From assembly GCA_001784175.1 (NCBI GenBank), contig MFPR01000035.1:1-42231 (forward strand): a stretch of 42,231 nt of DNA, read 5' to 3'. The notes below the pieces were generated by a model. The model did not search any database. It saw nothing but the letters and a program-made list of their open reading frames with translations, and was not told the origin of the DNA. Origin of the DNA: Candidatus Lindowbacteria bacterium RIFCSPLOWO2_12_FULL_62_27. GTDB lineage: Bacteria; Lindowbacteria; 2-12-FULL-62-27. Made by a program: the position numbers and the translations under genes. Below, piece by piece: positions 3,340 through 40,412 of the stretch (positions are counted from its first letter, which is position 1; each line of letters begins with the position of its first letter).

Positions 3340-5493
3340 TCAGCATAATACGCGTCCCGGTAGCCGATCCTGCTCGTAGTGCCTGACCAACTCCATTTTC
3401 AGCGGCCCCACGACATTGGAGCCGTCGCTACCTTTGCAGATCGCGCTGAATGCCGCGAGACTCATGAAGTCCGACGGTTTGAAGCTGGAATCCTCTGACA
3501 ACTTGCATGTCCTGGATGCTTCGGCCGCCGAATACGGGCACTCCAATCTGGTCCAGATTTTGTTCTGAAGGCACGACAAAATGTTGAAGACGACGTCGGG
3601 CCGAAGTTTCTGCAATAAAGAAGTGTAGTCCTGAAACGCCACGATATTGATGCACTTCGACTCCCGGGCTCTGTCATAAAACGTGTTATCCGATTTCATG
3701 CTACCCATCCCTCCGCCCGACACAAAACTTTGATACTCATCACAGACGAAGAACGTCGGCCGGCGGCGATTGAGAACGCCTTGAACGCCGGCACAGGCAT
3801 TCTGGCGCTTGAGCCACTCCTCACAGGTGGCTTGGATACGATTCCAACACTCATCCCGCTCCTGATACCCAGCACCTGAGAGAATGCCATTCGCGTCTTG
3901 CTCAGACAATTTTGTGAAGCGCTCCAGAACTACGAGTTTTGCATCGTTTACAATTATTTCCAGCACGGCCTTCCGCCGAACACTTTTTTGGCTCTCGAAC
4001 GATTTTCGTATCTTCATGGCATTGTCGATCAGCGCCATCTTTTCAGTGATTTCATTTTGGCTCAGGCGCGGCGCCCCCGCCCGTGTGGCATTCAACGCCC
4101 TATACTGGCCTTCGAGATTCTTTGTATCCGTCTGTGCCAGCGTCAGCTCTTGATAGAGTCGAAGGATTCGGCCTTCGTTTTCTGTGGATACCCGGCGCAA
4201 CACTGTGTCAAAATACGCCAGCTTCAGGAGGGTCGCAACCGAAGCGGATGGATTCCCGAATTCGGATGGAGGCATCATCAGATATACAATTTGCCCCTTG
4301 TTGATGGCGTCCTCAAAGCCGGCGAACGAAACATCCTTCTGCGCAGGGCAGAAAGTTTTTCGAAACTCTTTCATAGACACGAAGAGGTTGGCGAATTGTG
4401 TCATCTCCCCAACAATGTTCCCTTTCATTTTTTGCTCCATCCCGACCCACTGGGTGTACCAGAGATCCACGCCCTCCGCGTCCTCGTCGGAAACCGTTCC
4501 GGCCTCCAACTTTTTATCCAGATCCGTCATCTCCGCCGCCAAGGCTTCAGCATCCGTTGCGAATTTGAAAATATCTACCATCGTGAAATAACCCCTCGTC
4601 AGCCGACATAGTTCAACCATCCCGCGGACGGCATCCTCCGCGCTCTTGATCCAGAAAGCATCCCTGGGATCCATCCCACCGGAAAGACTGACCGTTGCCT
4701 CTGTAATGCGGGAGGCAATAAAGTCCGCTTTTCCGTTCTCGTAGAGAGGATTGTAGGTGTACTGACCGCCGGGCCGTAGAATGACCAAATCATTCTCCCG
4801 TCCGTATCGCTTACAGTAAATCTGAACCTGTTTGATGAAGTTTCCCTTGACCTCCAGAATCAGCCCACCGGGACGACTCGGATGACCGATGAGCTGATGC
4901 ATGAGCGGGAACATCACCCCCGCAGTCTTTCCGGTCCCGGGACTCCCAATTGTACAGAACCCTTGATAGCACCCGGGTTCAGGGATGGACACCCAGTCGC
5001 CGTTTTTATCGAGTCCGACCTCCAATCGCAACGGCGCCGAATAGTCTTCTGCCGGCGGATCCTCCTCGTCGTCGGGATCGTCGTCCACCTTCTGCGGCTC
5101 AACCGGCTCCGCCTCAACTGCCAAAATGTCGGTGGTGTCTTGTCCCGCTGATTTTGCCCCGCTCTGGAGTTTCATGTCTGTTCCTGAACCCGCCACGGCG
5201 TTGGTGGCCTGTACCCTGTCCGAACTATTTGAACCTGGAGACTCGGTACGCTTATTGTTCTTCATGAGCCCTGTTTCGGTTCGAGGACGACCGCCCGCGC
5301 TCTCGAAAAAATAATCGCCGATGGATTTGCACTTCTTGACGTCCTCCGGTTCGGGTGGTTCCACCTCGCGTGGCCGCACGATCATGATCTCGCGCCTGAA
5401 CTCAACGTCATACCCCGGGCCGCAAATTTCAGACAGGATCTTCTGAATCACGTCGTAGTCGATTTCTTTTTTCTTGGAGCGCAACCGTTCCAT
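3340..5493 (-). CDS. TraG/VirD4-like coupling ATPase without membrane anchor
   Basis: This 717-aa P-loop ATPase belongs to the VirD4/TraG/TraD group, which feeds DNA or protein to type IV secretion channels. Walker A is GSPGTGKT (about residues 183-190), followed by EVKGNF and the typical YNPLYENGKAD segment. Walker B is FFVCDEYQSF near residue 585. An acidic linker rich in Asp and Glu (about 133-151) precedes the ATPase core. The start at 5493 is set by GGGAGGA six bases upstream; an in-frame upstream ATG has no such site. The N-terminus is charged and lacks the paired transmembrane helices of standard VirD4. No relaxase or mating-channel gene is visible nearby. It follows a sigma-like gene in the same operon. 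The family assignment is sound; a role in conjugation is inferred and uncertain. Confidence 0.8.
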   Translation of the reverse strand: MERLRSKKKEIDYDVIQKILSEICGPGYDVEFRREIMIVRPREVEPPEPEDVKKCKSIGDYFFESAGGRPRTETGLMKNNKRTESPGSNSSDRVQATNAVAGSGTDMKLQSGAKSAGQDTTDILAVEAEPVEPQKVDDDPDDEEDPPAEDYSAPLRLEVGLDKNGDWVSIPEPGCYQGFCTIGSPGTGKTAGVMFPLMHQLIGHPSRPGGLILEVKGNFIKQVQIYCKRYGRENDLVILRPGGQYTYNPLYENGKADFIASRITEATVSLSGGMDPRDAFWIKSAEDAVRGMVELCRLTRGYFTMVDIFKFATDAEALAAEMTDLDKKLEAGTVSDEDAEGVDLWYTQWVGMEQKMKGNIVGEMTQFANLFVSMKEFRKTFCPAQKDVSFAGFEDAINKGQIVYLMMPPSEFGNPSASVATLLKLAYFDTVLRRVSTENEGRILRLYQELTLAQTDTKNLEGQYRALNATRAGAPRLSQNEITEKMALIDNAMKIRKSFESQKSVRRKAVLEIIVNDAKLVVLERFTKLSEQDANGILSGAGYQERDECWNRIQATCEEWLKRQNACAGVQGVLNRRRPTFFVCDEYQSFVSGGGMGSMKSDNTFYDRARESKCINIVAFQDYTSLLQKLRPDVVFNILSCLQNKIWTRLECPYSAAEASRTCKLSEDSSFKPSDFMSLAAFSAICKGSDGSNVVGPLKMELVRHYEQDRLPGRVLC

Positions 5494-5639
5494 GGGTTTC
5501 CTCCCGCCGCGTATTCGATTTCTAATGGGAATACGATCACGGAAGGAGTGGACGTGACGGAATTCGAAATTTAACCGGAACATGGGCAAACCATTTCTAT
5601 ACCGCATTCCCATGGACCCGTGGATACCCCGGAACGATA

Positions 5640-6884
5640 TTACGGCGCTGCTTGGGAAACCTCCTCGGCCACAAGCTCTCTGAATACTCGGACGCGCTCG
5701 CTGTAATGGCGCCGCCGTGCGAACGACTCAGCAGGGCTGTAATGACCATTCAGGTAGTCCTGATAGAGTCGCAGCAGTGCTGGATCGTCGGGACTCTCGT
5801 TGGCCATCCGCGGCGTCGCGAATGAAAACGGCCGCTGTGTCATCGAATAGAATCCAGGCATCCGGTTGAGGACTTCGCTCCTTGTGCGATCGGATAACAC
5901 CTGTTCCAGCGTTTGCCGGAGTACTCGCGGGGCCGCATGCGCCTCCACGGTCTCCTGCACAACGGCCAGACGAGTTTCCATGCTCAGAAGCTGATCTTTC
6001 GCCAGGGAGATGAATTCGTCGATCTTCTCCGTCGGCAAATAACCGATGCTTCCGATCTCTTCCTCGGCGAGGAAATTGTTGACGGCCTCCCTGAAATCCG
6101 GGTTATTCTGAAATTGGGCTGCTGTGGACTTTGTGAATCGTTCCATTCTCTTCCGCAGATTCTCCGCAGAATAGAACAGTCGCATACGGTCAAGGCCGTT
6201 ATCCGTAGCCCCTTCAAAGATCGTGTTCAACCGCCTTGCGATATCCTCGTAGGTCATCCGTCCAAAAAATCTCAAAATCCACAGAAAGGTCACGTCAGCC
6301 GGGGACAAATCAAAAAGCGCGTTCATAGCCGTGCGCAGCGCATCCGATGCGTTGATTTTTCTATTCAGGATGTCGTCAGACCTATCAGACGACAGCGGAA
6401 ATACGATCCGGGCACGTCCGACGTCCTGAGAATCAGACTTGGGGGGCAGACCCGTCGCTGGCTTCTTTGAACTGGACTTGCGTCCGCTCTTGCACCGGAG
6501 CCCGAGTTGCTGGCGGAACGCATCGTGGACGGAGTTCCGCAACACTTTACGAAGGTATGGCACGAAGGGCCGGCGCCGGTCCCATTTCCTCAATGCGTTC
6601 AAAAAGGCGCGGTTGATATCCGAACCGCTGTCATGAAGTTCGAGAACTAGTTTCCCACCGACGGCACCAGGAGACATGCTTCCATCGACATAACGAAACA
6701 GGCTCATTTCATACAGCACTTTGAGAGCAGAATCATACTCCGATCGAAGCGATTCCGGGTCCGTTCCATTTGATGACGGTGACTGTAGCTTGTCATGGAG
6801 CCGTGAAACCTGAAGCGCCGCTTCGTCGATGTGGCTTCGCGTGACCGACTTGACGTTTCTAATCAACAGGGCATTATTGGACAT
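5640..6884 (-). CDS. Sigma-70-like protein with long C-terminal extension
   Basis: This 414-aa protein has a sigma region-2-like stretch (about 90-130: INRAFLNALRKWD, then RPFVPYLRKVLRN) that resembles the core-RNAP-binding helices of ECF-type factors. A region-4-like helix-turn-helix follows (LSPADVTFLWILRFFGRMTYE, residues about 195-220, with EDIARRLN). The remaining ~190 residues are helical and not recognised. ECF factors are normally about 190 aa, so this is twice the usual length. GAGGAGGAGA lies upstream of ATG 6884. The gene sits 19 nt after the winged-helix regulator and before the TraG-like gene. The sigma function is inferred from motif resemblance. Confidence 0.6.
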   Translation of the reverse strand: MSNNALLIRNVKSVTRSHIDEAALQVSRLHDKLQSPSSNGTDPESLRSEYDSALKVLYEMSLFRYVDGSMSPGAVGGKLVLELHDSGSDINRAFLNALRKWDRRRPFVPYLRKVLRNSVHDAFRQQLGLRCKSGRKSSSKKPATGLPPKSDSQDVGRARIVFPLSSDRSDDILNRKINASDALRTAMNALFDLSPADVTFLWILRFFGRMTYEDIARRLNTIFEGATDNGLDRMRLFYSAENLRKRMERFTKSTAAQFQNNPDFREAVNNFLAEEEIGSIGYLPTEKIDEFISLAKDQLLSMETRLAVVQETVEAHAAPRVLRQTLEQVLSDRTRSEVLNRMPGFYSMTQRPFSFATPRMANESPDDPALLRLYQDYLNGHYSPAESFARRRHYSERVRVFRELVAEEVSQAAP

Positions 6885-27557: not shown

Positions 27558-28103
27558 GAATTTATTCCGTCTAAGATAATCAACAAGAACAAGTGCACGT
27601 TCCTCGAAACGATTGGCCGCAACAATCAATATCGGTCCTCTTAAGTGGTTTCTTTCGATTCTACGTTTTATGGTTTTTTCCTCTATCTGTGCGTCTTGGG
27701 AAATTTTCGCCATTTTATAGGCATTTTTGAAAAGGTGGAACCAGCTTATCAACCCCGTTTGCTTGGCATGCTCATCTGCAATTTCAAGTATTCTCGAAGC
27801 GTTCCAACGACTTGTTATAAACGAGGCATATTCCTGTAACTGTGCAACGACCTCTCTCCTCTGCTCTGGATTCTGAACCAATTTACATTCTACGATCAAC
27901 AGGGTACCTGTATCGTCAAGAAAGAGAAGATCAAGCGATCCAATCCCCGCCAAGGGTACTTGCCTGCCGATGGGTACCGCGATCTGCGCCTTGGGGTTTA
28001 TGTCAGCTATGGGAATGACCGTGGGAGTTGATTCGATTAATTGTTCAAACTGCTCTTCTTCCCCACTCGTAAAAGGTTTTTCCTTTTCATGGAGTGTTGT
28101 CAT
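27549..28103 (-). pseudogene. N-terminal half of IS-interrupted PD-(D/E)XK protein
   Basis: This 184-codon frame holds a RecB-like nuclease core: GSLDLLFLDDTGTLLIVECK (D and ExK) followed by EVVAQLQEYASFI. The last codons and the TAA come from the IS end (GAGATATAA), so the native frame runs to RRNKF and then into 26158 and onward. ATG 28103 overlaps the end of the 136-aa gene by 17 nt, and AGGAGG lies upstream. A truncated nuclease may still be made. The intact protein would join an N-terminal nuclease to an unrecognised C-terminal half, next to a DUF3553-like partner. Confidence 0.82.
27558..27566. repeat. Target-site duplication, right copy
   Basis: GAATTTATT adjoins the IS256-family element on the right and is identical to 26162-26170. 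Confidence 0.9.
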
Positions 28104-28497
28104 ATCCGCCTCCTGTCGATAACCCCTCGATTTTCACAGCCCAATCCACTGATCCCACCGTTCCGGACATTCCCCGGATGGCTTCCACCAGTGCATGGAT
28201 GTATATCATGGACGGTTCGTCAGGCTCTACACCGAAATGCTGCCAGCGCCGCTGTTCGAAAAACAGCGCGGTGCGAAGGTCGGTCAGAGAGTCGGGCAGG
28301 CTACCGTCATCCAGATATGCCCCCAGAATCCGGTTCGCGATTTCTCCGCACTTTTCGCACGATTCCCAATGGTGGAAACCTCGAAAGGAGTACGCGAATG
28401 GCTCTATCTCCTCCCAGTGCGCCGTCGGGCCGGGGACGTCAGCCGACGTAAGTTCTGCATCGAAGATGTGCTCCCACCTTTTTTTATCCCAGTCCAT
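28087..28497 (-). CDS. Hypothetical 136-aa protein
   Basis: The start at 28497 (MDWDKKRWEHIFDAELTS) is set by AAAGGAGAGG just upstream; a longer in-frame start has none. The protein has a single CEKC-type pair (SCEKCGEIANRI), a helical middle, and MIYIHALVEAIRG near the end. It is not recognised. Part of its 3' end is repeated at 21440-21476. It overlaps the nuclease gene by 17 nt and follows the 207-aa gene by 14 nt, so it is in the same operon. Confidence 0.6.
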   Translation of the reverse strand: MDWDKKRWEHIFDAELTSADVPGPTAHWEEIEPFAYSFRGFHHWESCEKCGEIANRILGAYLDDGSLPDSLTDLRTALFFEQRRWQHFGVEPDEPSMIYIHALVEAIRGMSGTVGSVDWAVKIEGLSTGGGYDNTP

Positions 28498-28511
28498 TCG
28501 CCTCTCCTTTC

Positions 28512-29135
28512 TCAATGCTTTTCTTTTCGCTCGTAGTTCGCAATTCCCCTCTTCGCTATTCGAATCGACAATTCAACAAACGTGCATTTGTCCGCTCTGA
28601 AGATTGCGTTCAGGCCGATTTCGGACTCGCGCGTTTTGGCGGCGGCGAAATACTGTTCATCTTCGAATGCGTACAGCAGGGTGGACAGTGCCTCCTGATT
28701 GCGTTTGTGGATATCGATCATGACGCTATATTCGCCACGGATGCAGAATACCGCGCCTGCGTATTCGCTCATGTCGACCACGATGCGGATCAGTTCCGAT
28801 ACGCTGTCCGGCTGGATGGCCTTCTGGGCGCATGTCCTTTTCACGCCAGCGGCTGATGCTGAGATCAACTCGAACAGGCGGTACCAGTACATGCCGTCGT
28901 CATAGAGGTGGTGGGTCAGAAAATACTCGCGGTTTTTTTGTACAAGTTTGAGACCATCCCGGGACAATGACAACAGCTCGTCGAAAAGTCTCCCGTCAGG
29001 CCGTTCGACGGTACTCCATGGCGAATCCTCCTTCCGCGAAAGGTACGCCTTTTCAAGAGCCTGCAATCTGGCCCGGACATCGGCGAAATCCTTTTCCGCG
29101 GGGATCGGGATCAGAGGCATGAGGGAGTCATCCAT
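28512..29135 (-). CDS. Hypothetical 207-aa helical protein
   Basis: The protein starts MDDSLMPLIPIPAEKDFADV and appears mostly helical, with a WYRLFELISASAAG block. No family is recognised. Its ATG overlaps the stop of the 315-aa gene by 8 nt, so the two are translated together. It is downstream of the HslV-like peptidase and may be part of that system. Confidence 0.6.
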   Translation of the reverse strand: MDDSLMPLIPIPAEKDFADVRARLQALEKAYLSRKEDSPWSTVERPDGRLFDELLSLSRDGLKLVQKNREYFLTHHLYDDGMYWYRLFELISASAAGVKRTCAQKAIQPDSVSELIRIVVDMSEYAGAVFCIRGEYSVMIDIHKRNQEALSTLLYAFEDEQYFAAAKTRESEIGLNAIFRADKCTFVELSIRIAKRGIANYERKEKH

Positions 29136-30075
29136 TCATCGTCGCCAGCCCGATGATCTCGTCGGCGGTGCGGAGGCGGGCGTCGGGGGAGTCGATGTCC
29201 CTGTCGAGGAGCGGGTCGATGTCGGGGATTTCAGCTTCGTCGTCAAAATCGAGAATGGCTTGTTCCAAGCCACCGAGATTCGTGGGGTCGGAGGGATCCG
29301 GTTTCTCACCCTGCCGCGCGTAACCCAGCCGCACGAACGCCTTCAAGTGCTCGATCAGCCGCAGGCGGGCCGGTCGATCCATGCCGATGGGCGGCAAGGG
29401 CTCGACTTTGATGCGTCCATCGTGCCAGACCGTCATGAAAACGCCGGATGCGGCGGCGACGTTAACCGCGTCGGGAATGGCGATTTGGACATCCAATCCG
29501 GCCGCTTTCAAGTTGCGATACAGTTGTTTGAGCCATTCGTGATCCAGATCCTCCTCGCGACTGACCAGAGCGTCGAAGTCAGGCTGATCGAACAGGGAGC
29601 GATTGAAGCGAGCGACACGGCCGTCCTTCAGCACGGCTTCGTACCACGCTCGCTCCGGCGTTTCGACAGCCACAATCCGCGTTGCCCGATTCTTGATCCA
29701 CGGCTCGTAGATGACAAACGCGATCATGAACTCGCGGATCCGCAGCGATTCGGCCACTGGATCCCTTGACGGAAGCCCTCCGTAGGGGAAGCGAAAAAAT
29801 AGATGGCCCCAGTCGTCGGCGCGGATGTAATAAAAGGTCCCCGCCCCGTCGCCGCTCCGCCCAAATCCAGTCAGGAGATACCCGTTCGGCGCCCTGCGCA
29901 GAAACTCCTCCGGATCGCCTGCTCGAAAGCGCGGATTCTCGCGCGCGGCGGCAGTTCCATAGATCGCCGTTCCGGGCGCAAGACGCACAAGGTCGAAGTC
30001 GTCGACCAACTGCCACGGGAATGCCCACGCCAGCTCATCGGCGAAGAGACGCTCAAGCTCGGAGGTGTCAGCCAT
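29128..30075 (-). CDS. Hypothetical 315-aa protein next to HslV-like peptidase
   Basis: The first ~110 residues (FRRAPNGYLLTGFGRSGDG-type segment, then TFYYIRADDWGHLFFRFPYG) have the aromatic, Gly-rich pattern of SUKH/SMI1-like sensor domains, but the match is weak. The C-terminal half is acidic and unassigned, ending DIDPLLDRDIDSPDARLRTA. It starts 24 nt after the peptidase gene. A substrate-binding or immunity role is a guess. Confidence 0.55.
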   Translation of the reverse strand: MADTSELERLFADELAWAFPWQLVDDFDLVRLAPGTAIYGTAAARENPRFRAGDPEEFLRRAPNGYLLTGFGRSGDGAGTFYYIRADDWGHLFFRFPYGGLPSRDPVAESLRIREFMIAFVIYEPWIKNRATRIVAVETPERAWYEAVLKDGRVARFNRSLFDQPDFDALVSREEDLDHEWLKQLYRNLKAAGLDVQIAIPDAVNVAAASGVFMTVWHDGRIKVEPLPPIGMDRPARLRLIEHLKAFVRLGYARQGEKPDPSDPTNLGGLEQAILDFDDEAEIPDIDPLLDRDIDSPDARLRTADEIIGLATMNG

Positions 30076-30098
30076 CCGTCAGGTCCTCGCGGCAACTT

Positions 30099-30764
30099 TC
30101 ATCGTGCCGTGGTTCTCGCAACCCGGCGGCGGCCATGATTGGACTCGACACCGGCGGCTCCATTGTTTCTCTGCGTGTTTGAACGGCCGGCATTCGATAT
30201 TTCACGTGAGACATGACGAAGTTCCATTTTTCCGCCGCAACTACGGTGGAAAAAGCAAACGGTGTTGAATGTCTGTCTCAAAATCTCGGATGCCTTCTCC
30301 AGGCGCGGATATAAAGAGTGAATGGCACCCAAGGCGATTTCATTACCGCTTCCGATGGCCGCAAAATTATCAAAAACGCAAATATCCCGGCTTGCCGCGA
30401 CTTCAAACATTCGCCGCGATGTCGCGACCATGAACGACGCGTCGCTGAGTTTCGAAATTTCATTCTCCTTTGCCGAACCGAGCGAATACCGCTCTTTGAC
30501 AAAGGCATAGACGTGCTGAAAAAAATCGGTCACATCGTGTTCGTTATCGAAAGCGCTCTCATACATATCCCTTTTCCTATCCGCGAAGTAACGCAGGACA
30601 TTTTGAAACAGGACGTTGCCTGAGCAACCTATTAACGCGTTTTTGAAACGCGTGATTTTTGTTACATCTGACCTGTCCGTACGGACAATCCACCCCCAAG
30701 CGGTCAGGCTGTCCGCCATCATCCACATCTCGCCGTTCTTTTTTACTGCCGCAATGACTGTCAT
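30099..30764 (-). CDS. HslV/proteasome-beta-like Ntn peptidase
   Basis: This 221-aa protein begins MTVIAAVKKNGEMWMMADSL: removal of Met would expose Thr1 as nucleophile, Asp of MMADS corresponds to Asp17, and Lys of DVTKI to Lys33. FAAIGSGNEIALGAIHSLY is the conserved GSG segment. It thus has the catalytic set of 20S-type peptidases such as HslV, which form stacked rings fed by an AAA+ unfoldase. The last ~30 residues are Asn/Arg-rich and unusual. It lies in the same operon as a ClpX-like unfoldase fusion and 26 nt after the small TGHxH protein. A truncated second copy of its N-terminus lies at 33939-34064. Confidence 0.8.
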   Translation of the reverse strand: MTVIAAVKKNGEMWMMADSLTAWGWIVRTDRSDVTKITRFKNALIGCSGNVLFQNVLRYFADRKRDMYESAFDNEHDVTDFFQHVYAFVKERYSLGSAKENEISKLSDASFMVATSRRMFEVAASRDICVFDNFAAIGSGNEIALGAIHSLYPRLEKASEILRQTFNTVCFFHRSCGGKMELRHVSREISNAGRSNTQRNNGAAGVESNHGRRRVARTTAR

Positions 30765-30789
30765 ACGAACCGCCCTGTGTTGGTCACTC

Positions 30790-31098
30790 TCAATCCTCCA
30801 CCCGCTTGATCTCGCCGGGTGTGTACTCCCGCTGGCGGCGGATGCGGTAGATGCCGGGTGTGATCGTGATGGCCGCATGCTCTTCGTGGACTAGCGACGT
30901 GTCGCCGGTGACTTCGGCGTAGATATCGCCGTCGGGCGCGTCGAAGAGGGCGACCGCCGATTCGTCGCTGAAGCGATGCCGGTGTCCGGTCGCCTCGCCG
31001 TAGGCTACTGTCAGGTCGGTTCGCGCTTTGAGTTTGTCCGGCATCGGGGATCCGGTTTTTATGATTAAAACGTCGCCCTGTCGGTACTGCTCGCTCAT
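30790..31098 (-). CDS. Small DUF6745-associated protein with TGHxH and HEEH motifs
   Basis: This 102-aa protein reads MSEQYRQGDVLIIKTG, AYGEATGHRHRF, SLVHEEHAAI and YRIRRQREYTPGE. It is beta-rich and two His clusters could bind metal, as in a small jelly-roll or cupin. I recall similar small proteins beside DUF6745 genes in other bacteria, and here it follows the DUF6745 fusion gene by 45 nt. The function is unknown. Confidence 0.7.
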   Translation of the reverse strand: MSEQYRQGDVLIIKTGSPMPDKLKARTDLTVAYGEATGHRHRFSDESAVALFDAPDGDIYAEVTGDTSLVHEEHAAITITPGIYRIRRQREYTPGEIKRVED

Positions 31099-31143
31099 CG
31101 TTTTCCTCCGTACAAATCGGATGTGAGGCCGCGATGCGGCCGG

Positions 31144-33942
31144 TCAAGTCTCCAATACCGGGACGTACTCTTCAGGTTTGAATCCAAATGTCCATGCGGC
31201 GGCGTGGGTGCAGGTTTTCATCTCACCTCCCGCATCCTCCCAGAGTGATTCCTCGCGATCATCCCATTTTCCGCCCGCCGCGCGTCTCGCATCGCCCCGC
31301 CCGGGCGGGACGCGAAGGAACACATCGGCCGCAAGACCCAGACGCACTTTCGCCGGATCGATCACATGCAAAATCACCATGGGCTCGTCGTCCTGCAAAT
31401 AGATACGATAGAGTTTTCGCGGATTGCCCGCCGTATCCCGGTCTTCGTCCAGAACCGCCGGGGACGCCTCGCGAATGAACGAAGCCAGACCCTTGCGCGC
31501 GATCATCAGCCGCCGTACTTCAGCGTTCTTCTCGTTCAGGATTGTCTCGGCCGAGAGAGATTGCGGATCGTTGATCACGACGGGAGGCACAACCACCCCC
31601 CGGTATCGATAAATCTCAAGTCCGTCGCTCAATACCGCGGCCGGTCCGCTTTCTGAATGCAGACGATTCCCGGTCTGATCCACATCAATCTGTTTTGGGC
31701 GCGTCACGATGAAAACGGTCTTCTCCAATGCAAGAAATGTCCATCCTCCGCTTGCGTAGAACTGCTTCATAAAAGCCGCCTCTTTGCTGATTCGCTCAAG
31801 CTCGGCCTGCAAGGCGGCATCGCAGGGATCGGTTGATTGAAAATGCCGGGCGGCCAGGACCGAAAATATGATGTGATTGGACATCACGCGTTTGAGATCC
31901 CAGTAGCAGAAGAATTTTTGGGCGGATGTCAAATTCGGCGTGTCAGCGGTGGTAACCGGAACGTTGCTGTTAAAATGCATTGTGTTCATAATTTTGCCGA
32001 GCGCTTCGTTAACGGATTTCAGAAAAAGATCGCTGTCGTGAACCTGGCTGCAGATTCGTCTCAACCCGCCGGCCAGCATCGGATCAATGAAGATCGCGTC
32101 GTTTAATGCGTGGAGGGATTGCACGCAGGGATGCCTGCTCAACGCGTCCGTGACATGCCGGCCCAACGCCGTGAGGTACATTTGGGACGATTCTCTGCCA
32201 AATGTCGAATAGAGCGCCCGGGCCGGCGCTCCCGAGAATCCGATTTGGGCAAGAAGGTTGTAATTCTCCATTTTCACTTGATCGGACGACGGATGATCTC
32301 GTCCGCAAGCGCCCTCGCGCGTGTGCGACTGCTGGAAGTCCCGGGCGACTTCTGCGGCGATGAGGGGCGCGGCCGGGTGCGAGCAATAGACGATGTCGGC
32401 AGGCAGGCGTTTGCCGTGGATTTCGTAAAAATCGGAGATGGCGTCGAACAGCGCCACTTCATCCACGGCGGCTTGGGAGAGCAGGTCCGTCCAGTCCGAC
32501 ACAACGGAATTGACCATCCCGGTGTCCTCTTCAAACCACAATCGTGCCGGAGATGCGGCGGCACGCGGTTCGGATTGAACGGGACGACGAATCGTTCCAT
32601 CGTGCGATTGAACGGGCACGTTATTCGGGATTTCGTGCCGGCATAGGACGAAACATTTCCGGAAATATTCGGGGACATAAGCGTTGACCAGATTAAAAAA
32701 CGGGCGACGCAGTTCGAGCGAACGAACTTCGAAGATGATTTCAGAATAATATTTCTCCCCGAGCCTTGCCAATTCTTCTTCAAATGCGATTTTTTCCGGC
32801 GCGGATGAAAACTCGATGATGCCCGCGCCATTTACTGTCTGAATATTGCGGAGCAGGGCATTCTCCTGTTTGTCCGACAACGAAACAACCTGCAATATGC
32901 CGTTCTTGCCCTGAAGGCCGGAACAAATGGACGGTGCAAGCGCCCGGCGAACAGCCCCGAGGGAATCAGTCCCATCGGACCGCACAAAGGCGTCCAGAAT
33001 GGTCAGGGTGTCAACAATGGGAATGCGTTCCGACAACAGATCTTGAAACAGCGCGTGTATCTGGTCGAGCCCGAACTTATTGACCGCCATACCTACCATC
33101 AGCTCGTCATCTGCTTTTGCCTTGTCCAAGAGCAACTGTGTCTGGTCCATTGAGAAAAGGGACGCTGCGTGTCGAGCCGCGAATTCAAACAAATGGGAGG
33201 ACATTACCACCGCCGGCTCCGACAGATAATAACCGGATTTCTCGGCGAGTTCCCGCTGGTCGGGCTTGATCCAAATGGCCGGAGCATGAAACAGCCGCTC
33301 GACATACGGAATCCCCTCGATCTCATGCCCTCCCCCGTCGGTTTTCACGGCCAGTACTCTCTCCGGTTCAACGGTGCCGGATTCGATCTGCCTGCCCTTC
33401 AGGAGAAGGGTATATTCCTTTGGCCGAAGTTTCAGGTCATCCCGGATACGGACGGACGGCAGGGTCACACCGAATTCATTGGCGAACCGGGTTCGGACGT
33501 TGCTCACTGCATCAAGGAATCCGTCGGGCCCCGATTGTTCACGATCTACAAGGGGAATCAGATGGTAGGCGATATTGACTTCGAGCTGTTCGACGGATTT
33601 GGGGGTGATCTCATTATAGAAATAGGTCCGCGCCGGCCGATCGATTCGATAGATGAACGCCAGCACCTCGGCCACTGGCTGATAATATTCGGATGGTATC
33701 TCCTCATCAACTTTGACCTTTCTGCATAGAAGGTGCGCGAGGCCCGCATATTCATAATTCGGCAGACCGATTCGCTCTGCGAGCCGAATGACATGCTTGG
33801 CGGTCCTGCCTGACCACTTCCCAATGACACGCGGAGTTTTATCCTGTTCGGGTCGATATGAAATCGCGACCGCCGGACCAGTCCCGCCAAAAATGAGAAC
33901 GTCGGAATCGTTCTTTGGTTGAATTCGAACGTCCATCGTCAC
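31144..33942 (-). CDS. FlhB_C - FlhA_C - DUF6745 fusion protein
   Basis: This 932-aa soluble protein has three parts. Residues ~13-105 resemble the FlhB/YscU cytoplasmic switch domain (VAISYRPEQDKTPRVIGKW, HLLCRKVKVDEEIP, AEVLAFIYRID). Residues ~145-345 resemble the FlhA cytoplasmic (FHIPEP) domain (TLPSVRIRDDLKLRPKEY, GIPYVERLFHAPAIWI, FQDLLSERIPIVDTLTILDA). Residues ~490-932 are DUF6745 (GNRLHSESGPA, NAEVRRLMI, WTFGFKPEEYVP). In flagella these gate domains bind export substrates and chaperones at the membrane; here no transmembrane helix and no NPTH autocleavage site exist. A GTG start at 33942 is favoured by GGGGA upstream; ATG 33936 is the alternative. It lies between the ClpX-like fusion and the HslV-like peptidase. 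Confidence 0.78.
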   Translation of the reverse strand: MTMDVRIQPKNDSDVLIFGGTGPAVAISYRPEQDKTPRVIGKWSGRTAKHVIRLAERIGLPNYEYAGLAHLLCRKVKVDEEIPSEYYQPVAEVLAFIYRIDRPARTYFYNEITPKSVEQLEVNIAYHLIPLVDREQSGPDGFLDAVSNVRTRFANEFGVTLPSVRIRDDLKLRPKEYTLLLKGRQIESGTVEPERVLAVKTDGGGHEIEGIPYVERLFHAPAIWIKPDQRELAEKSGYYLSEPAVVMSSHLFEFAARHAASLFSMDQTQLLLDKAKADDELMVGMAVNKFGLDQIHALFQDLLSERIPIVDTLTILDAFVRSDGTDSLGAVRRALAPSICSGLQGKNGILQVVSLSDKQENALLRNIQTVNGAGIIEFSSAPEKIAFEEELARLGEKYYSEIIFEVRSLELRRPFFNLVNAYVPEYFRKCFVLCRHEIPNNVPVQSHDGTIRRPVQSEPRAAASPARLWFEEDTGMVNSVVSDWTDLLSQAAVDEVALFDAISDFYEIHGKRLPADIVYCSHPAAPLIAAEVARDFQQSHTREGACGRDHPSSDQVKMENYNLLAQIGFSGAPARALYSTFGRESSQMYLTALGRHVTDALSRHPCVQSLHALNDAIFIDPMLAGGLRRICSQVHDSDLFLKSVNEALGKIMNTMHFNSNVPVTTADTPNLTSAQKFFCYWDLKRVMSNHIIFSVLAARHFQSTDPCDAALQAELERISKEAAFMKQFYASGGWTFLALEKTVFIVTRPKQIDVDQTGNRLHSESGPAAVLSDGLEIYRYRGVVVPPVVINDPQSLSAETILNEKNAEVRRLMIARKGLASFIREASPAVLDEDRDTAGNPRKLYRIYLQDDEPMVILHVIDPAKVRLGLAADVFLRVPPGRGDARRAAGGKWDDREESLWEDAGGEMKTCTHAAAWTFGFKPEEYVPVLET

Positions 33943-34064
33943 ACCAGTTCCCCTTTCCGCTGGGGATCAGATCGATCAGTGCTGGAAACCCATCCCCAGG
34001 ACGTTAGGCCGGCCGCCATCATCCACATCTGATTGTTCTTATTCAGAGCGGCTATAACGGTCAC
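33939..34064 (-). pseudogene. Truncated HslV-like N-terminus coupled to ClpX-like gene
   Basis: A frame starting with GTG that overlaps the ClpX-like stop (GTGA) reads MTVIAALNKNNQMWMMAAGL and TSWGWVSSTDRSD, matching the start of the intact peptidase over 33 codons (about 70 percent of bases, many third-position changes). It ends soon after, before the Lys33 equivalent, at a TGA just before the next gene. The Asp17 equivalent is Ala. It is a remnant of a second, diverged subunit once coupled to the unfoldase. Confidence 0.7.
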
Positions 34065-36595
34065 TTCGAACCCCCATCAAAATCTTTTCGATACATCTTT
34101 TCGGTCACGATTCGGTGCCCTGCCGACAACGAAAGCCACACATCGACTTCAGATTCCGACAGGACCGCGATGCCGTCATTCTCCGGCGATAGAATCTCAT
34201 AAATGGCCCGGCGGGTTGTTGGTGGAGCGATTATAACCGGCCGCCGGCCGACAGATTTTGTGGCGGCGATGCTCTCGGCGAAAAACGACTTTGCTTGCTC
34301 CGCAGCCTCCGGCGAACTCATCTCCGCCTGCGTTGCGACACCGGCTTCAATTGCATGGAGAACTCCATCTGTGCCGGCCAGGCGGTCGCAGATGATGGGC
34401 GCCAACACGTGCCGCACCCGCTCGACCATCTCCGAGAGGGGCGCGTTTGAATCGAGCGATAGGAGTGTGTCCAATATAAGTGTGATGTCCTTGATGGGCA
34501 CATGTTCACGCACCAATTCCCGCAAAACGGATGTGACTTTCCTGGCTCCGATGCCTTTTTCGACCTCCTCCGCGAGCCTGGCGCACTTGTCTTTGACGAT
34601 ATCAAGAAGGCTTTCGGTGTGCTCTCGCGAAACGAGCAACCAGGCATTTTGGCGCAACGCGTGCTCCAAGTGTTTTGCGATGACTGTAGGAGGGTCGTAG
34701 ACGGTACAACCGGCTTGGAACGCCCTGACAGCATCATCTGGATCGATCCAAATCCCAGACTGCCCGCTGACCGGCTCCCGCACCACGTCACCTCGAAACT
34801 GCGTTGTCGCGGGGCCGATCGCCATCAGCCGATCTGGCCGTAACTCACCCCGGCCTCGCCGCATGCCTCTGATCAGAATCTCGTAATAACGGGGCGGTAG
34901 GGAGTGAGATACTCTTGTTTCAACTTGCGGAAGGATCAGGCCAAACTCGTTCGCTAAACGAAATCGAATTTGGGCGGACACATCGGCGAAGAACATAGGC
35001 TCAAGTTCATATTCGGTCAGAATATGGACATCTGTCTGAGCAACACTTTCCTCAATTTCCGTCCCTCTCTCACGCCAAATCTTGGGATCAGGCCGCCCGT
35101 GAGCCCTGTCGAAGGCGAGCGCATCCCGATAAACGTCATTTAAGGGCCCACGAAGTGCCGGTTGAACCATCTGGTCTTCGATACAATTATTCCACAACGC
35201 TGTCATCAGGATTTCGTCCGATTTGACGATTTTACGATATTTTCGGGCCCGTTCGATGAGTTTGTCCGCTTTGGCACCGGTCCATTTGGCCTTGCAGACA
35301 GGTTGGACGACACGCAGAGGCTCCATTCGTTCGAGTATGCTGCCGGCTTCGGATGCCTGAGGACACAACTCATAATCGACAGCGACGACTCGCCGGTTCG
35401 AAGTAATCAAGAACTTGAAAGATAATTTCCTGACCTCAGCGGCACTGTCCTCATCAAGCGAATCCGCCTCCAGTTCGGTTTCCTGGGCGCCTGACCCGGC
35501 CGACTCGGGAACACATCTAACGCGACCCTCCTCGAGTTTGACGTTGACAACTGTCGAAGACTTTACAGGCAGAAGGTCGTACATCACAGGTTCGAGTTCT
35601 TTGGCGAGGAGTTGCTGGAGCCCACGCGCGCCTATTTGTGTCTTCACAGCAGTGTGGACGAAGTGGCTGAATACCGCCGGCTCGATGTTCAGCTGCAAGC
35701 CATCTTTTGCAAACTCCGCCGCCGCATGTTTCGATGCCTCCGACTGGACGATGGCAAGCAACGTCTGTTCATCGAGCGGGTCAAACGTGACGACGCGCCG
35801 GAACCGTGCGATCAATTCCGGCATAAACCCGAATTTCTTAAAATGCTCGATGTTATCGATCTCCTCTTCGGTAAAAGCTGCGGCAATCTGTTCGGAGTCG
35901 GATTTGTCCGCAGCACCTAAAAATCCGATGTTCGGCCCGCCATGAATGGAGCGTACGGCAGTCTTGAATCCAGAGAACGCCCCACATGCGATAAATGAAA
36001 TGTGGGATGTCGACATTTGAAAGGACGGATCGTCGTGCCCTTCAGGTACATCGACGCGAGCGCCGTCGAGCATCTTTAGAAGCTCCCGCTGGACACCGTA
36101 TCCGCTGACATCCTGATATTCGCTGCGTTTCCCGGCAGTCTTGTCGAACTCATCCAAGCAGACGACACCACACTCGGCCTTGAAGCGGTTCCCATCAGCC
36201 ACGGTTATCAGGCTCTTCAGAATCTTGATTACATCCATACCGTGATAGCCTGTCTGTGAATAATTGGTCATATCAGCGATGAACACCGGGACTTTGAGAA
36301 TTTTAACAAACAGCAGATCCACCAGATGGGTCTTCCCGCTGCCCGTGGGTCCCATCATGAGGTAATTGAGTTTCGGCGGGCCGACGACCGCATGTCCAGC
36401 ATCTTGATTGGCGGCCGCATATTGCTTGATGCGCTTGATATGCCGGTGCGCCATGAGACACAAAGCCCGGCGGGCCCGCACCTGCCCTCGATACCCCAGT
36501 GACTCCAGTTTATCGAACAATTCTTTCGGTGAAGGCACGACCAACTTCCTCGCCCATTCCCTGAAGGTTTCCCTGTCCTCGTCTTCGTCAGCCAC
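34061..36595 (-). CDS. ClpX-type AAA+ unfoldase fused to FlhB_C and FlhA_C domains
   Basis: This 844-aa protein (GTG start at 36595, AGGGGTGA eight bases upstream; a TTG at 36625 is possible) begins with a ClpX-type AAA+ module: Walker A GPTGSGKT (82-89), pore loop GYHG (116-119), Walker B VVCLDEFD (144-151), an IGF tripeptide at the position of the ClpP-docking loop (223-225) and sensor-2 GARGL (322-326). The ClpX zinc domain is absent. Residues ~398-505 resemble FlhB_C (VCKAKWTGAKADKLIERARK) without NPTH. Residues ~535-745 resemble FlhA_C (LANEFGLILPQVETRVSH, LRELVREHVPIKDITLILDT). It probably unfolds proteins for the HslV-like peptidase in the same operon, with gate domains as receptors; this is inferred. 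Confidence 0.8.
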   Translation of the reverse strand: MADEDEDRETFREWARKLVVPSPKELFDKLESLGYRGQVRARRALCLMAHRHIKRIKQYAAANQDAGHAVVGPPKLNYLMMGPTGSGKTHLVDLLFVKILKVPVFIADMTNYSQTGYHGMDVIKILKSLITVADGNRFKAECGVVCLDEFDKTAGKRSEYQDVSGYGVQRELLKMLDGARVDVPEGHDDPSFQMSTSHISFIACGAFSGFKTAVRSIHGGPNIGFLGAADKSDSEQIAAAFTEEEIDNIEHFKKFGFMPELIARFRRVVTFDPLDEQTLLAIVQSEASKHAAAEFAKDGLQLNIEPAVFSHFVHTAVKTQIGARGLQQLLAKELEPVMYDLLPVKSSTVVNVKLEEGRVRCVPESAGSGAQETELEADSLDEDSAAEVRKLSFKFLITSNRRVVAVDYELCPQASEAGSILERMEPLRVVQPVCKAKWTGAKADKLIERARKYRKIVKSDEILMTALWNNCIEDQMVQPALRGPLNDVYRDALAFDRAHGRPDPKIWRERGTEIEESVAQTDVHILTEYELEPMFFADVSAQIRFRLANEFGLILPQVETRVSHSLPPRYYEILIRGMRRGRGELRPDRLMAIGPATTQFRGDVVREPVSGQSGIWIDPDDAVRAFQAGCTVYDPPTVIAKHLEHALRQNAWLLVSREHTESLLDIVKDKCARLAEEVEKGIGARKVTSVLRELVREHVPIKDITLILDTLLSLDSNAPLSEMVERVRHVLAPIICDRLAGTDGVLHAIEAGVATQAEMSSPEAAEQAKSFFAESIAATKSVGRRPVIIAPPTTRRAIYEILSPENDGIAVLSESEVDVWLSLSAGHRIVTEKMYRKDFDGGSK

Positions 36596-36743
36596 GAAAG
36601 ATTTCACCCCTTTCCGAATAACCAATGTGCATCGCGCAGGCCCATCGGTTCCACCACACCTGATACAAATGCGGTTTTTTTTCGGATTTCTGTTTTTTGA
36701 AGAAAATTTATTGATATGGCTGGGGACGGTATGGAGCGGCGGG

Positions 36744-39173
36744 TTACCCCTGGTTGAACACGGCTTCTCTCACTGGCTCGTCTATGCTCTCGAACCGGGA
36801 TGAACTCAATATTTCGGCGACTGCGCTCCTCGGTTTCGGATATCGCGGCGATGCGCCGAACGGCGATATTCGAATCACGTCCTTTGGTGGCGGCTCAAGC
36901 CATACAACCCAGTCATCAGCGAGTTTCCTTTGCGACATCAATCCGGCAGCCTCATCGAACAAGGCACGGTAAATCCTGGCGCGCCGGGCATCTTTCATCG
37001 CTTCGTATGCCAGCGACAGGCCACGGTGGGGATGAGCGTTGGAAGGATCGTCGGCGAGCGCGCGGTGGAAGCATTTAGCGGCATCGTGGTTCTCTCCCGC
37101 GCGAAGGTGGACTCCGCCGAGCAACATCCAGACATAGCTTGCGAATGATGAGCGAATTCCACCTCTCTTGCCCCGGCTCTTTTCAACATCCGATCGTGTC
37201 AGAAGCGGCCAGCGCTCGAAGACCGGCCGCATGGGCCGGGGTGACCTGGCGATTTCGGCGAGAACCTGATCAAGGCGGATTCTGGCATCGGCATCCCGTC
37301 CACGGAAAATCGCGATCTCCGCCAAGTACAGCCACGTGCGGACTTCATCGACCTTGACGTCCAGTGCACGTTGCGCGGCGCGCTCGGCCTGATCATACCT
37401 GCCCAGCAAGATGCAGAGCCGGACGATCCGGCGGATGTTGTGGACATCCGACGGATTGACCTTGCATCCGATATCCGCCCATTTAACAGCCTGTTCGTAC
37501 AGCCCCCGGTTGCGGAACGAATCCGATACCCATCCAATGGTAAATGAATTGCTCGGGTCGATCCGATAGGCCTTCATGAGGACCTTGTCGGCGCGACCGT
37601 TGTCGCCGACGTCACGCAAGACACGCGCAAGACGTTGAAGGGTGCGGACATTGCGGGGGTCGAGCCGGTGCGCCTTTTCCATCCATTCAAGTGCTTTGGT
37701 GTATTTTTTCATGCCTCGATAAACATAGGCGATCTGCCTGACCGCCCACTGATTTTTTGGGATAATCTGATGGCACTTCATGAACCACTGGATCGATTCA
37801 TCCCAGGCGCGCATATCGCGGCAAATATATCCCATCTGCGCTATTGTGCTCGCGTTGTCGGGGTCGATTTCGAGTGCGCGCTTAAGCCACTCCTTGGCCC
37901 GGGTGAAATCGTTTCTTTCACGCTCAAGGAACGACATTTCATTGAGATTGCCGACGTCACGGGGGTCAAGCAGATACGCCCTTTGGAGCCAACGAACGGC
38001 TTCGTCGAACCGGCCGAGTTTGCGGTTGACCTCGCCAACCTTTGCGTAACCGACAGGATCGGCCGGCTGGAGGGCGATGGATTTTTCCAGGAAGCGGAGG
38101 GCGAGTTTTTCGTCCACTCGCCACATTTCGATCGCGGCGATACGGTAGACATACGGATCCTTGGACCTGAGATTGCCGAGCAACCGCGCTTCGCGCCGCG
38201 CCTCATCCAGCCGCCCGCTTCGCCGGAGGATTTTGACAAGAAGCAGTCTGGCGAACACGGCTGTCAGCCTGTCCTCGATACATTCGCGGACCATTTCCTC
38301 CATCTTGCGGTCGGGGTTCAAAGTACCTTGCAGAGTCGCCATGCCCCAAGCGACCTTCCATATTTTTTGTCTCGGAAATTTCTCCGCGAATAATTTGTAC
38401 TGACCGATGACCGACGGCATTCCGAGTTCCTGGCGACATCGAATGTCCATCCATATCGCCGGAAGATAGGTGGGATGCGATTTGAGAACCCGGTCCAGTA
38501 AGAAAAGCGCGTAATCACTGTCGTATGCGTCAAATTTCCTGGCGGCCAGCCGGAAATAATAATCGTCTTTCGCTTCTTTTGCACGAGGAGCCGACGGGTC
38601 CAGAGAAAGATACTGGCCGACGATCGCTGTCCGCGCCTTGCGCTCGCCAATTCCTGAAATCCGCGCCACGGCCGGCGCCGCCAATGACGAAAACCTTAGA
38701 AACTCGTCCAACCTGCGCTGATGAATTTCCGGATCGATCAGTGCGATGGGGGGGCCCATTCTGGTCGAATCGACATTCCCGGCGTCTATGGCAGATCCCC
38801 CGCGGTCCAGGTAAGCCGTAACCTGACGCATGGCTGATGCGTGAACCGTCCCGTGGAATCTGTGTTCCAAGGAGAGAAGCGTTTCCGTCAGCATCGGGAG
38901 TTCAGCCCAGCATTCGACAGCCATCGGGATGTCAAGATCATTCTCTGCCGGGGGGATGCGAATATCACCGGGCGCAAGTTTATCCAGCCGGATTGTCACT
39001 GGGACGAGCCGGAAGGCGGGACCATCCGCCGAGCCATCTGCGCACACGGCGTGCGTCACGACAAAACTCAAGAGGTCCCGGCCGGACTTGACCGACCAAA
39101 ACTGTCCGGGCCGTATTGCGTCCGGTTCTGTTTCGGTCTTGGCCATCCGCCTCAACGTGTTTTTCGTGGTCAT
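36744..39173 (-). CDS. TPR-repeat protein with unique N-terminal domain
   Basis: This protein of about 809 aa has an N-terminal beta-rich domain (RPGQFWSVKSG, then FRLVPVTIRLDKLAPGDIRI) followed by at least ten tetratricopeptide repeats between about residues 220 and 720. Typical units are GRFDEAVRWLQRAYLLDPRD, DFTRAKEWLKRALEIDPDN and KYTKALEWMEKAHRLDPRN. TPRs bind protein partners, so this is a likely scaffold or substrate adaptor. ATG 39173 is preferred because GGAAGTGAT stands six bases upstream; ATG 39230 lacks a site. It lies between the sigma-like gene and the ClpX-like fusion. Confidence 0.8.
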   Translation of the reverse strand: MTTKNTLRRMAKTETEPDAIRPGQFWSVKSGRDLLSFVVTHAVCADGSADGPAFRLVPVTIRLDKLAPGDIRIPPAENDLDIPMAVECWAELPMLTETLLSLEHRFHGTVHASAMRQVTAYLDRGGSAIDAGNVDSTRMGPPIALIDPEIHQRRLDEFLRFSSLAAPAVARISGIGERKARTAIVGQYLSLDPSAPRAKEAKDDYYFRLAARKFDAYDSDYALFLLDRVLKSHPTYLPAIWMDIRCRQELGMPSVIGQYKLFAEKFPRQKIWKVAWGMATLQGTLNPDRKMEEMVRECIEDRLTAVFARLLLVKILRRSGRLDEARREARLLGNLRSKDPYVYRIAAIEMWRVDEKLALRFLEKSIALQPADPVGYAKVGEVNRKLGRFDEAVRWLQRAYLLDPRDVGNLNEMSFLERERNDFTRAKEWLKRALEIDPDNASTIAQMGYICRDMRAWDESIQWFMKCHQIIPKNQWAVRQIAYVYRGMKKYTKALEWMEKAHRLDPRNVRTLQRLARVLRDVGDNGRADKVLMKAYRIDPSNSFTIGWVSDSFRNRGLYEQAVKWADIGCKVNPSDVHNIRRIVRLCILLGRYDQAERAAQRALDVKVDEVRTWLYLAEIAIFRGRDADARIRLDQVLAEIARSPRPMRPVFERWPLLTRSDVEKSRGKRGGIRSSFASYVWMLLGGVHLRAGENHDAAKCFHRALADDPSNAHPHRGLSLAYEAMKDARRARIYRALFDEAAGLMSQRKLADDWVVWLEPPPKDVIRISPFGASPRYPKPRSAVAEILSSSRFESIDEPVREAVFNQG

Positions 39174-39236
39174 GGTGTTATCACTTCCATTGAGCGCGGC
39201 GCCGTTCAGACGGTACCGGCTGTTCTCCATCCATCA

Positions 39237-40412
39237 TTATGAATGTCCTTTTCCCGTAATATTCTGATACTCGTAGCAAATCCTGCAAAAATCACCGACC
39301 AGCAATTCCCGATACCTGTCATAGTATTGAGCGCCTCCACGCTCAATGCCGAGAACATTTCGAAGTTGTTCCATCGCGTTCCGGCGTTCCACGGTGGCTT
39401 GGGCATTCTGCAGACCCACGGTGATACCCAGACGCCGGGCAGACACCTTTTTCACACGCCCCGTCTTGGGATCGTGGTGCAAAGCCATAATCTCGATTTG
39501 TCGGGGCGTCAGGAAATTACCCGAGTGGACCAATCGTTCCAAGTATTCGACATGCCGCTTGTAGTCGACTGCGTCCTGAAGATCAAACGGATCCGCTTCA
39601 AGATCGAGCAAATTCACTTTTTTGGCCGGGTCGTCCGGATCCGGCCGTTCGGCCGGTACGAACGCCGGGTGGCGTTCGTCGAACAGACCCTTGATGATAT
39701 TGCAAAGTGTAGATGTACCAAGGCCGACATTCTTCCGCTCGTAGATATTGCCCGCAACGTCAAACGCTGCCTTGACGATTTCGGCGGCGTATCTCGGACG
39801 AAATTCCCGTATCCGGCTTGCTTGAAACCACGCATCCAGCCCCCGGACGAGGCAGGCACGCGCATTGGAATCCATGGGGACGAGCGGCATTCGGACTCTG
39901 GAGGCCAGAACATACATGCGGTCGGACGCTCCATGCAGGTCCACCGACCCGCTGACGGGGATCAGTTCCCCCTTGGAGGCGGCCATCTTGAAGGCTGTGG
40001 CAATCGGTTTATAGACCCTTTGATTCTTTCGATGAGAACCTTTCATGCAGCGCTCGGCCACCGTCTCCAGCGTCATCACGAACCGGCCCGCTCGGGTCTG
40101 CCCCCGACGCCGGTATTCAGGCGCGATTTTTCTGTTGCGGCCCTTGTAGCCCCTGTAAAGAACCTCCTGTGCGGCGTCAAGGACGTCCTCGTCGGTCGGA
40201 CCGTATACCTGAACATCATCTCTTTGAAACCGCCGCCAGATGCGTCTGACGGTCTCACGGTGCAATTGAACAAACCACGGAGTCGAAAAATCGGCGGCAT
40301 CCGCACTCTTAAAATACTCCTCCACCAATTCCTCGAACTGAGTGTTCGGTATCCGAGACCATCGATGTAGTCGTTGTGCTATTCGTTGGCCGCCTCCTGC
40401 CATCGTCTGCAT
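39237..40412 (-). CDS. Sigma-like DNA-binding protein heading the ClpX-like operon
   Basis: This 391-aa protein has an N-terminal helical stretch like sigma region 2 (DEDVLDAAQEVLYRGYKGRN) and a C-terminal region-4-like helix-turn-helix (NFLTPRQIEIMALHH, then KKVSARRLGITVGLQNAQAT). The middle ~150 residues are unassigned. It is about twice the length of an ECF factor and parallels the sigma-like gene at 5640-6884, which also heads an ATPase operon. The start is uncertain: ATG 40412 or 40403, neither with a clear ribosome binding site. It would control expression of the TPR and protease genes; inferred. Confidence 0.55.
   Translation of the reverse strand: MQTMAGGGQRIAQRLHRWSRIPNTQFEELVEEYFKSADAADFSTPWFVQLHRETVRRIWRRFQRDDVQVYGPTDEDVLDAAQEVLYRGYKGRNRKIAPEYRRRGQTRAGRFVMTLETVAERCMKGSHRKNQRVYKPIATAFKMAASKGELIPVSGSVDLHGASDRMYVLASRVRMPLVPMDSNARACLVRGLDAWFQASRIREFRPRYAAEIVKAAFDVAGNIYERKNVGLGTSTLCNIIKGLFDERHPAFVPAERPDPDDPAKKVNLLDLEADPFDLQDAVDYKRHVEYLERLVHSGNFLTPRQIEIMALHHDPKTGRVKKVSARRLGITVGLQNAQATVERRNAMEQLRNVLGIERGGAQYYDRYRELLVGDFCRICYEYQNITGKGHS

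Follow-up and report, generated by a model that had tools for sequence, protein, structure and literature searches.

The window analysed here is a stretch of 42,231 nucleotides (MFPR01000035.1, positions 1 to 42,231) from Candidatus Lindowbacteria bacterium RIFCSPLOWO2_12_FULL_62_27, and it is a stretch of contig C35 of that genome (G000; 4.39 Mb assembled, 94% complete). The list of open reading frames has consecutive minus-strand genes between 40412 and 28087, in which predicted proteolysis proteins are combined with soluble modules made of the cytoplasmic domains of FlhB and FlhA (Table 1). A preliminary description of this DNA had proposed eight or more same-strand genes joined by overlaps or tiny gaps. 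The common strand holds over the whole run (28087-40412), but two gaps are not tiny: those between the tetratricopeptide repeat (TPR) gene and the ClpX-FlhBA fusion, and between that fusion and the FlhBA-DUF6745 fusion, each measure about 118 bases, and the second contains the remnant of a peptidase gene. Along the direction of transcription, the downstream half runs ClpX-FlhBA, FlhBA-DUF6745, TGHxH protein and peptidase. Promoter and terminator scans of the cluster stayed at chance level, and neither the TGHxH protein nor three further small cluster genes matched a Pfam family at E 0.001.

Table 1. Features of the minus-strand gene cluster, in window coordinates (aa, amino acids)
Feature	Position	Strand	Basis or remark
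Possible small first gene, 89 aa	40492..40761	-	PPR match below cut-off (E 0.11); about 80 bases upstream of the regulator gene
Regulator-like protein, 391 aa, first cluster gene	39237..40412	-	Identity not established
Protein of 828 aa with predicted MazF/PemK fold (about residues 37-150) and TPR repeats	36744..39230	-	Pfam TPR; AF2 model
ClpX-like AAA+ unfoldase with FlhB-like and FlhA cytoplasmic domains	34061..36625	-	TTG start as listed
Peptidase-gene fossil, open reading frame of 41 codons	33939..34064	-	Protein and DNA similarity to the start of the intact gene
FlhB-C, FlhA-C and DUF6745 fusion, 932 aa	31144..33942	-	Pfam; orthologue in G001
TGHxH small protein, 102 aa	30790..31098	-	phrog_27831, 2.8e-17
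Proteasome-like (BPH/HslV-type) Ntn peptidase, 221 aa	30099..30764	-	Pfam, PHROG and PDB matches
Protein of 315 aa	29128..30075	-	C-terminal part matches a TPR protein of the G001 cluster (33% over 150 aa, E 5e-16)
Protein of 207 aa	28512..29135	-	47.9% over 188 aa to L028:3436-4104, which adjoins FlhBA genes in G001
Protein of 142 aa, overlapping the 207-aa gene	28087..28515	-	No family match (Pfam, NCBIfam, PHROG)

The ClpX-FlhBA fusion named in the preliminary description stood up at both ends of the protein, with matches to AAA_2 (1.4e-16) and FHIPEP (1.7e-48) in Pfam, to ClpX in NCBIfam (1.9e-62), and to both ClpX (2e-45) and FlhA-C (3e-28) among PDB sequences. Its FlhB part is weak by library search (TIGR00789, E 0.031) and is identified mainly because the fusion aligns with FlhBA-DUF6745 (27.7% over 329 residues, 6e-25) across the FlhB segment. 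Comparison with 14 other ClpX or ClpX-like proteins indicated that the AAA+ motifs are kept: Walker A, the GYHG pore loop, Walker B DE, the IGF loop, the arginine finger and the sensor-2 GARGL. The protein as called contains no CxxC...CxxC of the zinc-binding N-terminal domain. Its start is uncertain, with the frame open for 48 codons further upstream (902 versus 854 codons) without an ATG, GTG or TTG; by eye, this upstream open frame (36625-36769, minus strand) holds a single CxxC, possibly a remnant of the zinc domain or a sign of an unusual start. The closest relatives of the AAA+ part are zinc-less ClpX-like genes (L080:8095-9234, 44%; L103:8445-9584, 42%) from genomes related to G000 at the level of the domain only, and their neighbourhoods lack a BPH-like peptidase.

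The second fusion matches Bac_export_2 (1.1e-17), FHIPEP (2.5e-52) and DUF6745 (3.6e-28) in Pfam, as the preliminary description had it. This fusion goes beyond chance, because a 59%-identical orthologue is present in an independent assembly (JAHFCY010000048.1), a Candidatus Lindowbacteria metagenome-assembled genome (G001) placed in the same family as G000 but in another genus. A third genome, G002, falls in the same family. When 386 genomes were scanned with an FlhB+FlhA profile, scoring at most four candidates per genome so that remote relatives could be missed, 168 matched at E 1e-20. Among the matches listed, only five span both domains, two in G000 and three in G001, so that fused modules appeared in 2 of the 386 genomes, both of this family; the others listed begin at profile position 84 or later, are of FlhA type and lie mostly in frames of about 700 codons. 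Counting FlhA domains by genome gave one canonical and three soluble copies in G000, one canonical (split across two contigs) and four soluble in G001, and one canonical in G002, which is 81% complete. Contigs of GTDB r220 were searched as well. None of the 20 pattern matches obtained with a single sequence was an FlhBA relative, and with a two-sequence alignment (two short peptide patterns) the one relative among 48 pattern matches was the record of G001 itself.

Export function looks to have been lost from these modules. The FHIPEP matches of both window fusions start at profile position 329 or 357 of 657, leaving out the transmembrane part, and the NPTH autocleavage motif is absent from the three FlhB modules compared while present in three canonical FlhB proteins (L026, L031 and L130, from two Lindowbacteria genomes and an E. 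coli record). In agreement with the preliminary description, which had noted the absence of flagellar structural genes, neither fusion adjoins a flagellar operon, and the canonical FlhA of G000 lies on another contig. In an FlhA tree, one soluble copy of G001 (on C343) groups with the lineage's own FlhA (support 83/88), whereas the branches of the other soluble copies are too long for placement. To our knowledge, the cytoplasmic domains of FlhA and FlhB have been known solely as parts of secretion machines.

The peptidase is predicted to be of the proteasome-like Ntn type, and that much of its earlier designation as HslV-like was upheld; its best PDB match is rather BPH (5ovs, 1.4e-12), with HslV a much poorer one (0.08). 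In Pfam it falls just below the cut-off for Proteasome (2.5e-4, 21.2 bits against 22.4), and in PHROG it matches phrog_1040, 'peptidase HslV family' (9.5e-15). Membership of this group is recognised by an N-terminal Thr nucleophile with Asp17 and Lys33, and the window protein keeps all three: in the alignment to 5ovs, Thr2 (after Met) falls on Thr1, ADsLT on ADTLT and tKitR on EKIIR. The open reading frame between the two fusions is 63% identical to the N-terminus of this peptidase over 35 residues (E 5e-9), and at the DNA level the similarity sets in about 10 bases before the start codon. Its start overlaps the stop of the ClpX fusion and its end overlaps the start of FlhBA-DUF6745, each through a GTGA. 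Because this fossil sits there with such an overlap, the gene for the peptidase, or a duplicate, once lay directly 3' of the ClpX fusion, which suggests past translational coupling of the two genes. The available parts of two publications give BPH no known unfoldase (PMC5777263) and new proteasome homologues no co-occurring AAA+ partner (PMC8665760). At the five loci that we fetched for BPH-like homologues elsewhere (L089-L093), no ClpX-like neighbour was found, with the homologue on L091, a 7.7-kb contig, not recovered by the calling of open reading frames; the HslUV control locus (L094) does show one. Both G000 and G001 carry a further proteasome-family gene (L133, on G000:C43; L132, on G001:C60) that is unlinked to the FlhBA clusters.

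At the head of the cluster stand the regulator-like gene and the MazF-fold/TPR gene. The preliminary description had called the first product sigma-like. We could not confirm a sigma factor, since no family was matched in Pfam up to E 10 or in NCBIfam up to E 0.1 and the AF2 model (pLDDT 36.6) is unusable; a helix-turn-helix-like pattern of helices at 303-353 is the only hint of its nature. Across 98 genomes the regulator was found in its own genome alone, and on plasmids neither it nor a MazF-fold/Lon-like protein was found. The TPR scaffold of the preliminary description is indeed there, as TPR repeats in Pfam, and is preceded by an N-terminal part that belongs to a small family (alignment A7). 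The AF2 model of this part (pLDDT 60) retrieved MazF in Foldseek (in the best 50 of 271 rows, best E 2.1e-5), and nearly all rows of VIA-align were MazF (best Z 9.3, 3.2 A over 102 residues), so that the predicted structure is of the MazF/PemK fold. Five members of the family gave no MazF/PemK match in Pfam up to E 10, and the assignment is therefore a claim about fold only.

The order of regulator then MazF-fold protein recurs at five loci in three genomes. A search with profile A6 located four of them, in all three genomes, but did not recover the window copy, which counts as the fifth because it is linked to the others through G000:C28 (L102): the TPR proteins of the two loci are 30% identical over 756 residues, and a regulator homologue occupies the same position there (E 1.2e-4 over 60 residues). 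The regulators of G000:C30 and G001:C84 showed no detectable relation to that of the window, with no blastp match. At three of the five loci (window, G000:C30 and G001:C84), the head module and a soluble FlhA gene are no more than about 5 kb apart. On L102, two paired direct repeats of about 85% identity (129-563/5256-5789 and 560-943/5852-6235) flank a region downstream of this third regulator/MazF-TPR pair.

We next consider DUF6745 and the small TGHxH protein, whose presence had been noted before and is supported by the PHROG match. DUF6745 was found in 4 of 372 genomes. In one of these (G332) it adjoins a TGHxH gene, by eye without FlhA domains or protease, and 19 of the 26 viral-collection contigs with TGHxH (L104-L129) have DUF6745 close by, while none of the 26 has the peptidase. 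The window TGHxH protein is 67% identical to the L076 copy and 48% to the L079 copy. DUF6745-TGHxH is thus an independent and widespread two-gene module, which this lineage has joined to FlhB-FlhA. The literature search returned no paper mentioning DUF6745.

Of the seven soluble FlhA-domain genes in the two genomes, six have a predicted unfoldase or protease, either fused to them or in the same cluster: both fusions of the window, the FlhA-FlhB gene of G000:C30, and, in G001, two HELAH-FlhBA fusions and the FlhBA-DUF6745 orthologue. The HELAH fusions join a metallopeptidase-like part to FlhB-FlhA and are 84% identical to each other; one of them directly precedes the FlhBA-DUF6745 orthologue, the place held by the ClpX fusion in the window. 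The C30 cluster encodes, on one strand, a regulator, a MazF-fold protein, two Lon-like proteins, an FlhA-FlhB protein in which the order of the domains is reversed and the start is by eye twin-arginine-like, and an AAA protein. One Ser and one Lys are invariant in four Lon-like domains from three genomes, which in our reading are the Lon dyad, the alignment having held no canonical Lon. Several families are common to the clusters of both genera: FlhBA-DUF6745 (59%), TGHxH (67%), the 207-aa gene (48%), the C-terminus of the 315-aa gene (33%), a 169-aa gene at 24185 (41%), a 184-aa gene at 27549 (35%) and an 86-aa gene at 22085 (51%). These are kept while the peptidase has no counterpart in G001 at E 1e-3, suggesting that the recognition-like part stays constant and that it is the proteolytic part that varies.

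Two further observations concern these clusters. The soluble FlhA-domain proteins L025:9227-10441 and L029:6735-8036 begin, by eye, in a twin-arginine-like manner (SRRGFFQ and SRRRFLQ), by which a cytoplasmic domain of FlhA would come to lie outside the cytoplasm. FlhA-domain genes of both genera also have a small protein beside them, 52% identical between L030:945-1166 and L025:11988-12308. Beside the cluster in the window, the region 709-27530 carries a serine recombinase, a GmrSD-type gene, a RAMA-PDDEXK gene, a Mutator-family transposase and a UvrD/PD-(D/E)XK pair (AddAB-like). At 3340-6884 an ECF-type sigma gene (TIGR02937, 1.6e-8) is followed by a P-loop ATPase that is TraG/VirD4-like by eye.

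We propose, with a probability that we put close to even but not above it, that the cluster encodes a modular proteolysis system, specific to the Candidatus Lindowbacteria lineage, in which the FlhB-FlhA modules are the receptor or assembly part of the proteases. The FlhB and FlhA cytoplasmic domains, freed from the membrane, would have become the module through which proteases, ATP-dependent and other, receive substrates or are assembled. The ClpX-like AAA+ ring with its FlhB-FlhA module would unfold proteins and hand them to the BPH/HslV-like proteasome-type peptidase; FlhBA-DUF6745 with TGHxH would be a further receptor or would recognise targets, tied in through the gate domains that the fusions share; and the regulator and MazF-fold/TPR protein, in a two-gene order like that of toxin-antitoxin pairs, would sense a trigger or control expression. 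At the level of sequence, the fusions, the intact catalytic and AAA+ motifs, the past coupling of unfoldase and peptidase genes, and the recurrence of head module and gate domains alongside other proteases can be read directly. From these we infer that the products assemble into one complex with protein-degrading activity, that substrates bind to the gate domains and that a trigger sets it off. The proteolysis half of the preliminary description is supported by the Thr, Asp and Lys of the peptidase, the ClpX motifs, the fossil and the paralogous clusters that pair with proteases.

A broader version of this proposal is possible, though on balance we doubt it: a new class of triggered degradation machines, possibly immune, in which a domesticated export gate serves as protease intake, ClpX is the first AAA+ partner for a BPH-type homologue, and interchangeable parts (ClpX with BPH-like peptidase, Lon-like protein with AAA protein, metallopeptidase) operate under a MazF-fold head. 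We regard the architecture as new and the mechanism as hypothetical; among the matches listed by the literature search, the excerpts returned describe no FlhA-ClpX or FlhA-proteasome-homologue fusion. If the proposal is true, a gate for export can be converted into one for degradation. The question of a partner for BPH, as posed in the accessible parts of PMC5777263 and PMC8665760, becomes testable, with a BPH-like gene formerly coupled to a ClpX-like gene.

Several results weigh against the modular proteolysis system. Of the FlhA positions that we take to be chaperone-binding, an acidic residue at 456 is kept in 7 of 7 copies, Phe459 and Thr490 each in 1 of 7, and with this partial conservation a role as substrate receptor is not established. 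The ClpX-FlhBA architecture was met only once. Its kept IGF loop could signal docking on the housekeeping ClpP, encoded side by side with a canonical ClpX at G000:C20, and not on a BPH-like ring, and the fossil could also indicate a decaying locus. In G001, a genome 88% complete, nothing matched the BPH-like peptidase at E 1e-3, and the protease part is therefore not a constant of the system. As for the paralogous clusters, two of the five head-module loci have no soluble FlhA gene within the stretch examined, the seventh soluble FlhA gene (G001:C343) lies beside HEAT-repeat genes with no protease in sight, the metallopeptidase call is based on a motif (Pfam only E 0.11-0.12), and the Lon call is weak in the libraries (Pfam 0.059; PDB 0.65). 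The preliminary description had named two arrangements that would tell against it, fusion genes apart from the peptidase and fusion genes next to complete flagellar operons. The first was found in half: in G001, FlhBA-DUF6745 stands without a BPH-like peptidase but beside a metallopeptidase-FlhBA gene. The second was found for neither fusion.

An alternative is that the cluster is a defence or abortive infection system, a conflict system with swappable effectors whose head senses an invader and whose unfoldase and peptidase degrade host or invader proteins. The head module with different downstream parts at five loci is consistent with this, as are the predicted fold of the MazF toxin family, the GmrSD-type, RAMA-PDDEXK, recombinase and transposase genes of the window, and the PLD-like and SNF2-like genes that adjoin the FlhBA genes in G001. 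We nevertheless consider it unlikely. The restriction-type genes, transposase and recombinase are context, and neighbourhood alone is a weak argument. PADLOC gave no match at E 0.01 for eight of nine core genes, and the ninth, the TPR protein, matches through its repeats only. Viral contigs yielded no FlhBA relative among 15 and 47 pattern matches, and of 131 plasmid records the best 10 fall on flagellar genes or unannotated stretches, with just two of these 10 spanning both domains, as separate flagellar-type FlhA and FlhB/SctU genes.

Soluble FlhB/FlhA modules might instead serve flagellar quality control, taking export substrates or their chaperones to proteases and so tuning flagellar assembly. 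G000 does have a canonical full-length FlhA, the C343 copy groups with the FlhA of the lineage, and published work, in the extracts available, puts substrate docking on FlhA. This is improbable given that the fusions have no flagellar gene nearby and the canonical FlhA is on a separate contig, that the dimple residues are mostly altered and NPTH is lost, and that G002, at 81% completeness, has a canonical FlhA without a soluble copy. FlhA-C forms nonameric rings, and FlhB-FlhA might be a mere ring-forming or oligomerising tag, domesticated once and copied among neighbours that share a mobile region without a common mechanism, as the varied proteins that carry it (once permuted, FlhA then FlhB), the independence of DUF6745-TGHxH, the adjoining transposase and the two head modules without FlhA genes would allow, but we find this quite improbable when six of seven soluble copies stand with proteolysis-related domains, the fossil shows coupling to a peptidase gene and several cluster gene families are common to two genera.

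The modular proteolysis system can be set beside several known ones. The EACC/TPR/ECF-sigma conflict systems of Kaur and colleagues are, in the accessible part of PMC8195603, likewise modular operons with TPR proteins, there together with ECF sigma factors; FlhA and MazF go unmentioned in the accessible parts of PMC8195603 and PMC7159879, as do ClpX, proteasome and unfoldase in that of PMC7159879. With MazF/PemK toxins the TPR protein shares the fold predicted for its N-terminal domain, whereas the family of this domain lacks a MazF/PemK match in Pfam and is fused to TPR repeats or, elsewhere, to a Lon-like domain. With HslUV and BPH the cluster has in common a peptidase whose best match is BPH and whose Thr, Asp and Lys are kept, with a ClpX-family ATPase in the same operon; HslU is of another AAA+ type, and BPH is reported without an AAA+ partner in what is accessible of PMC5777263 and PMC8665760. 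Compared with ClpXP, the AAA+ part is ClpX-like and has the IGF loop and GYxG pore loop, but the called protein is without the zinc domain and carries FlhB/FlhA modules, and ClpP is encoded elsewhere, beside the canonical ClpX. Finally, like the flagellar/type III export gate, the window proteins contain the C-terminal domains of FlhA and FlhB; unlike it, their modules have shed the transmembrane part and NPTH, lie away from flagellar genes and hold both domains in one chain.

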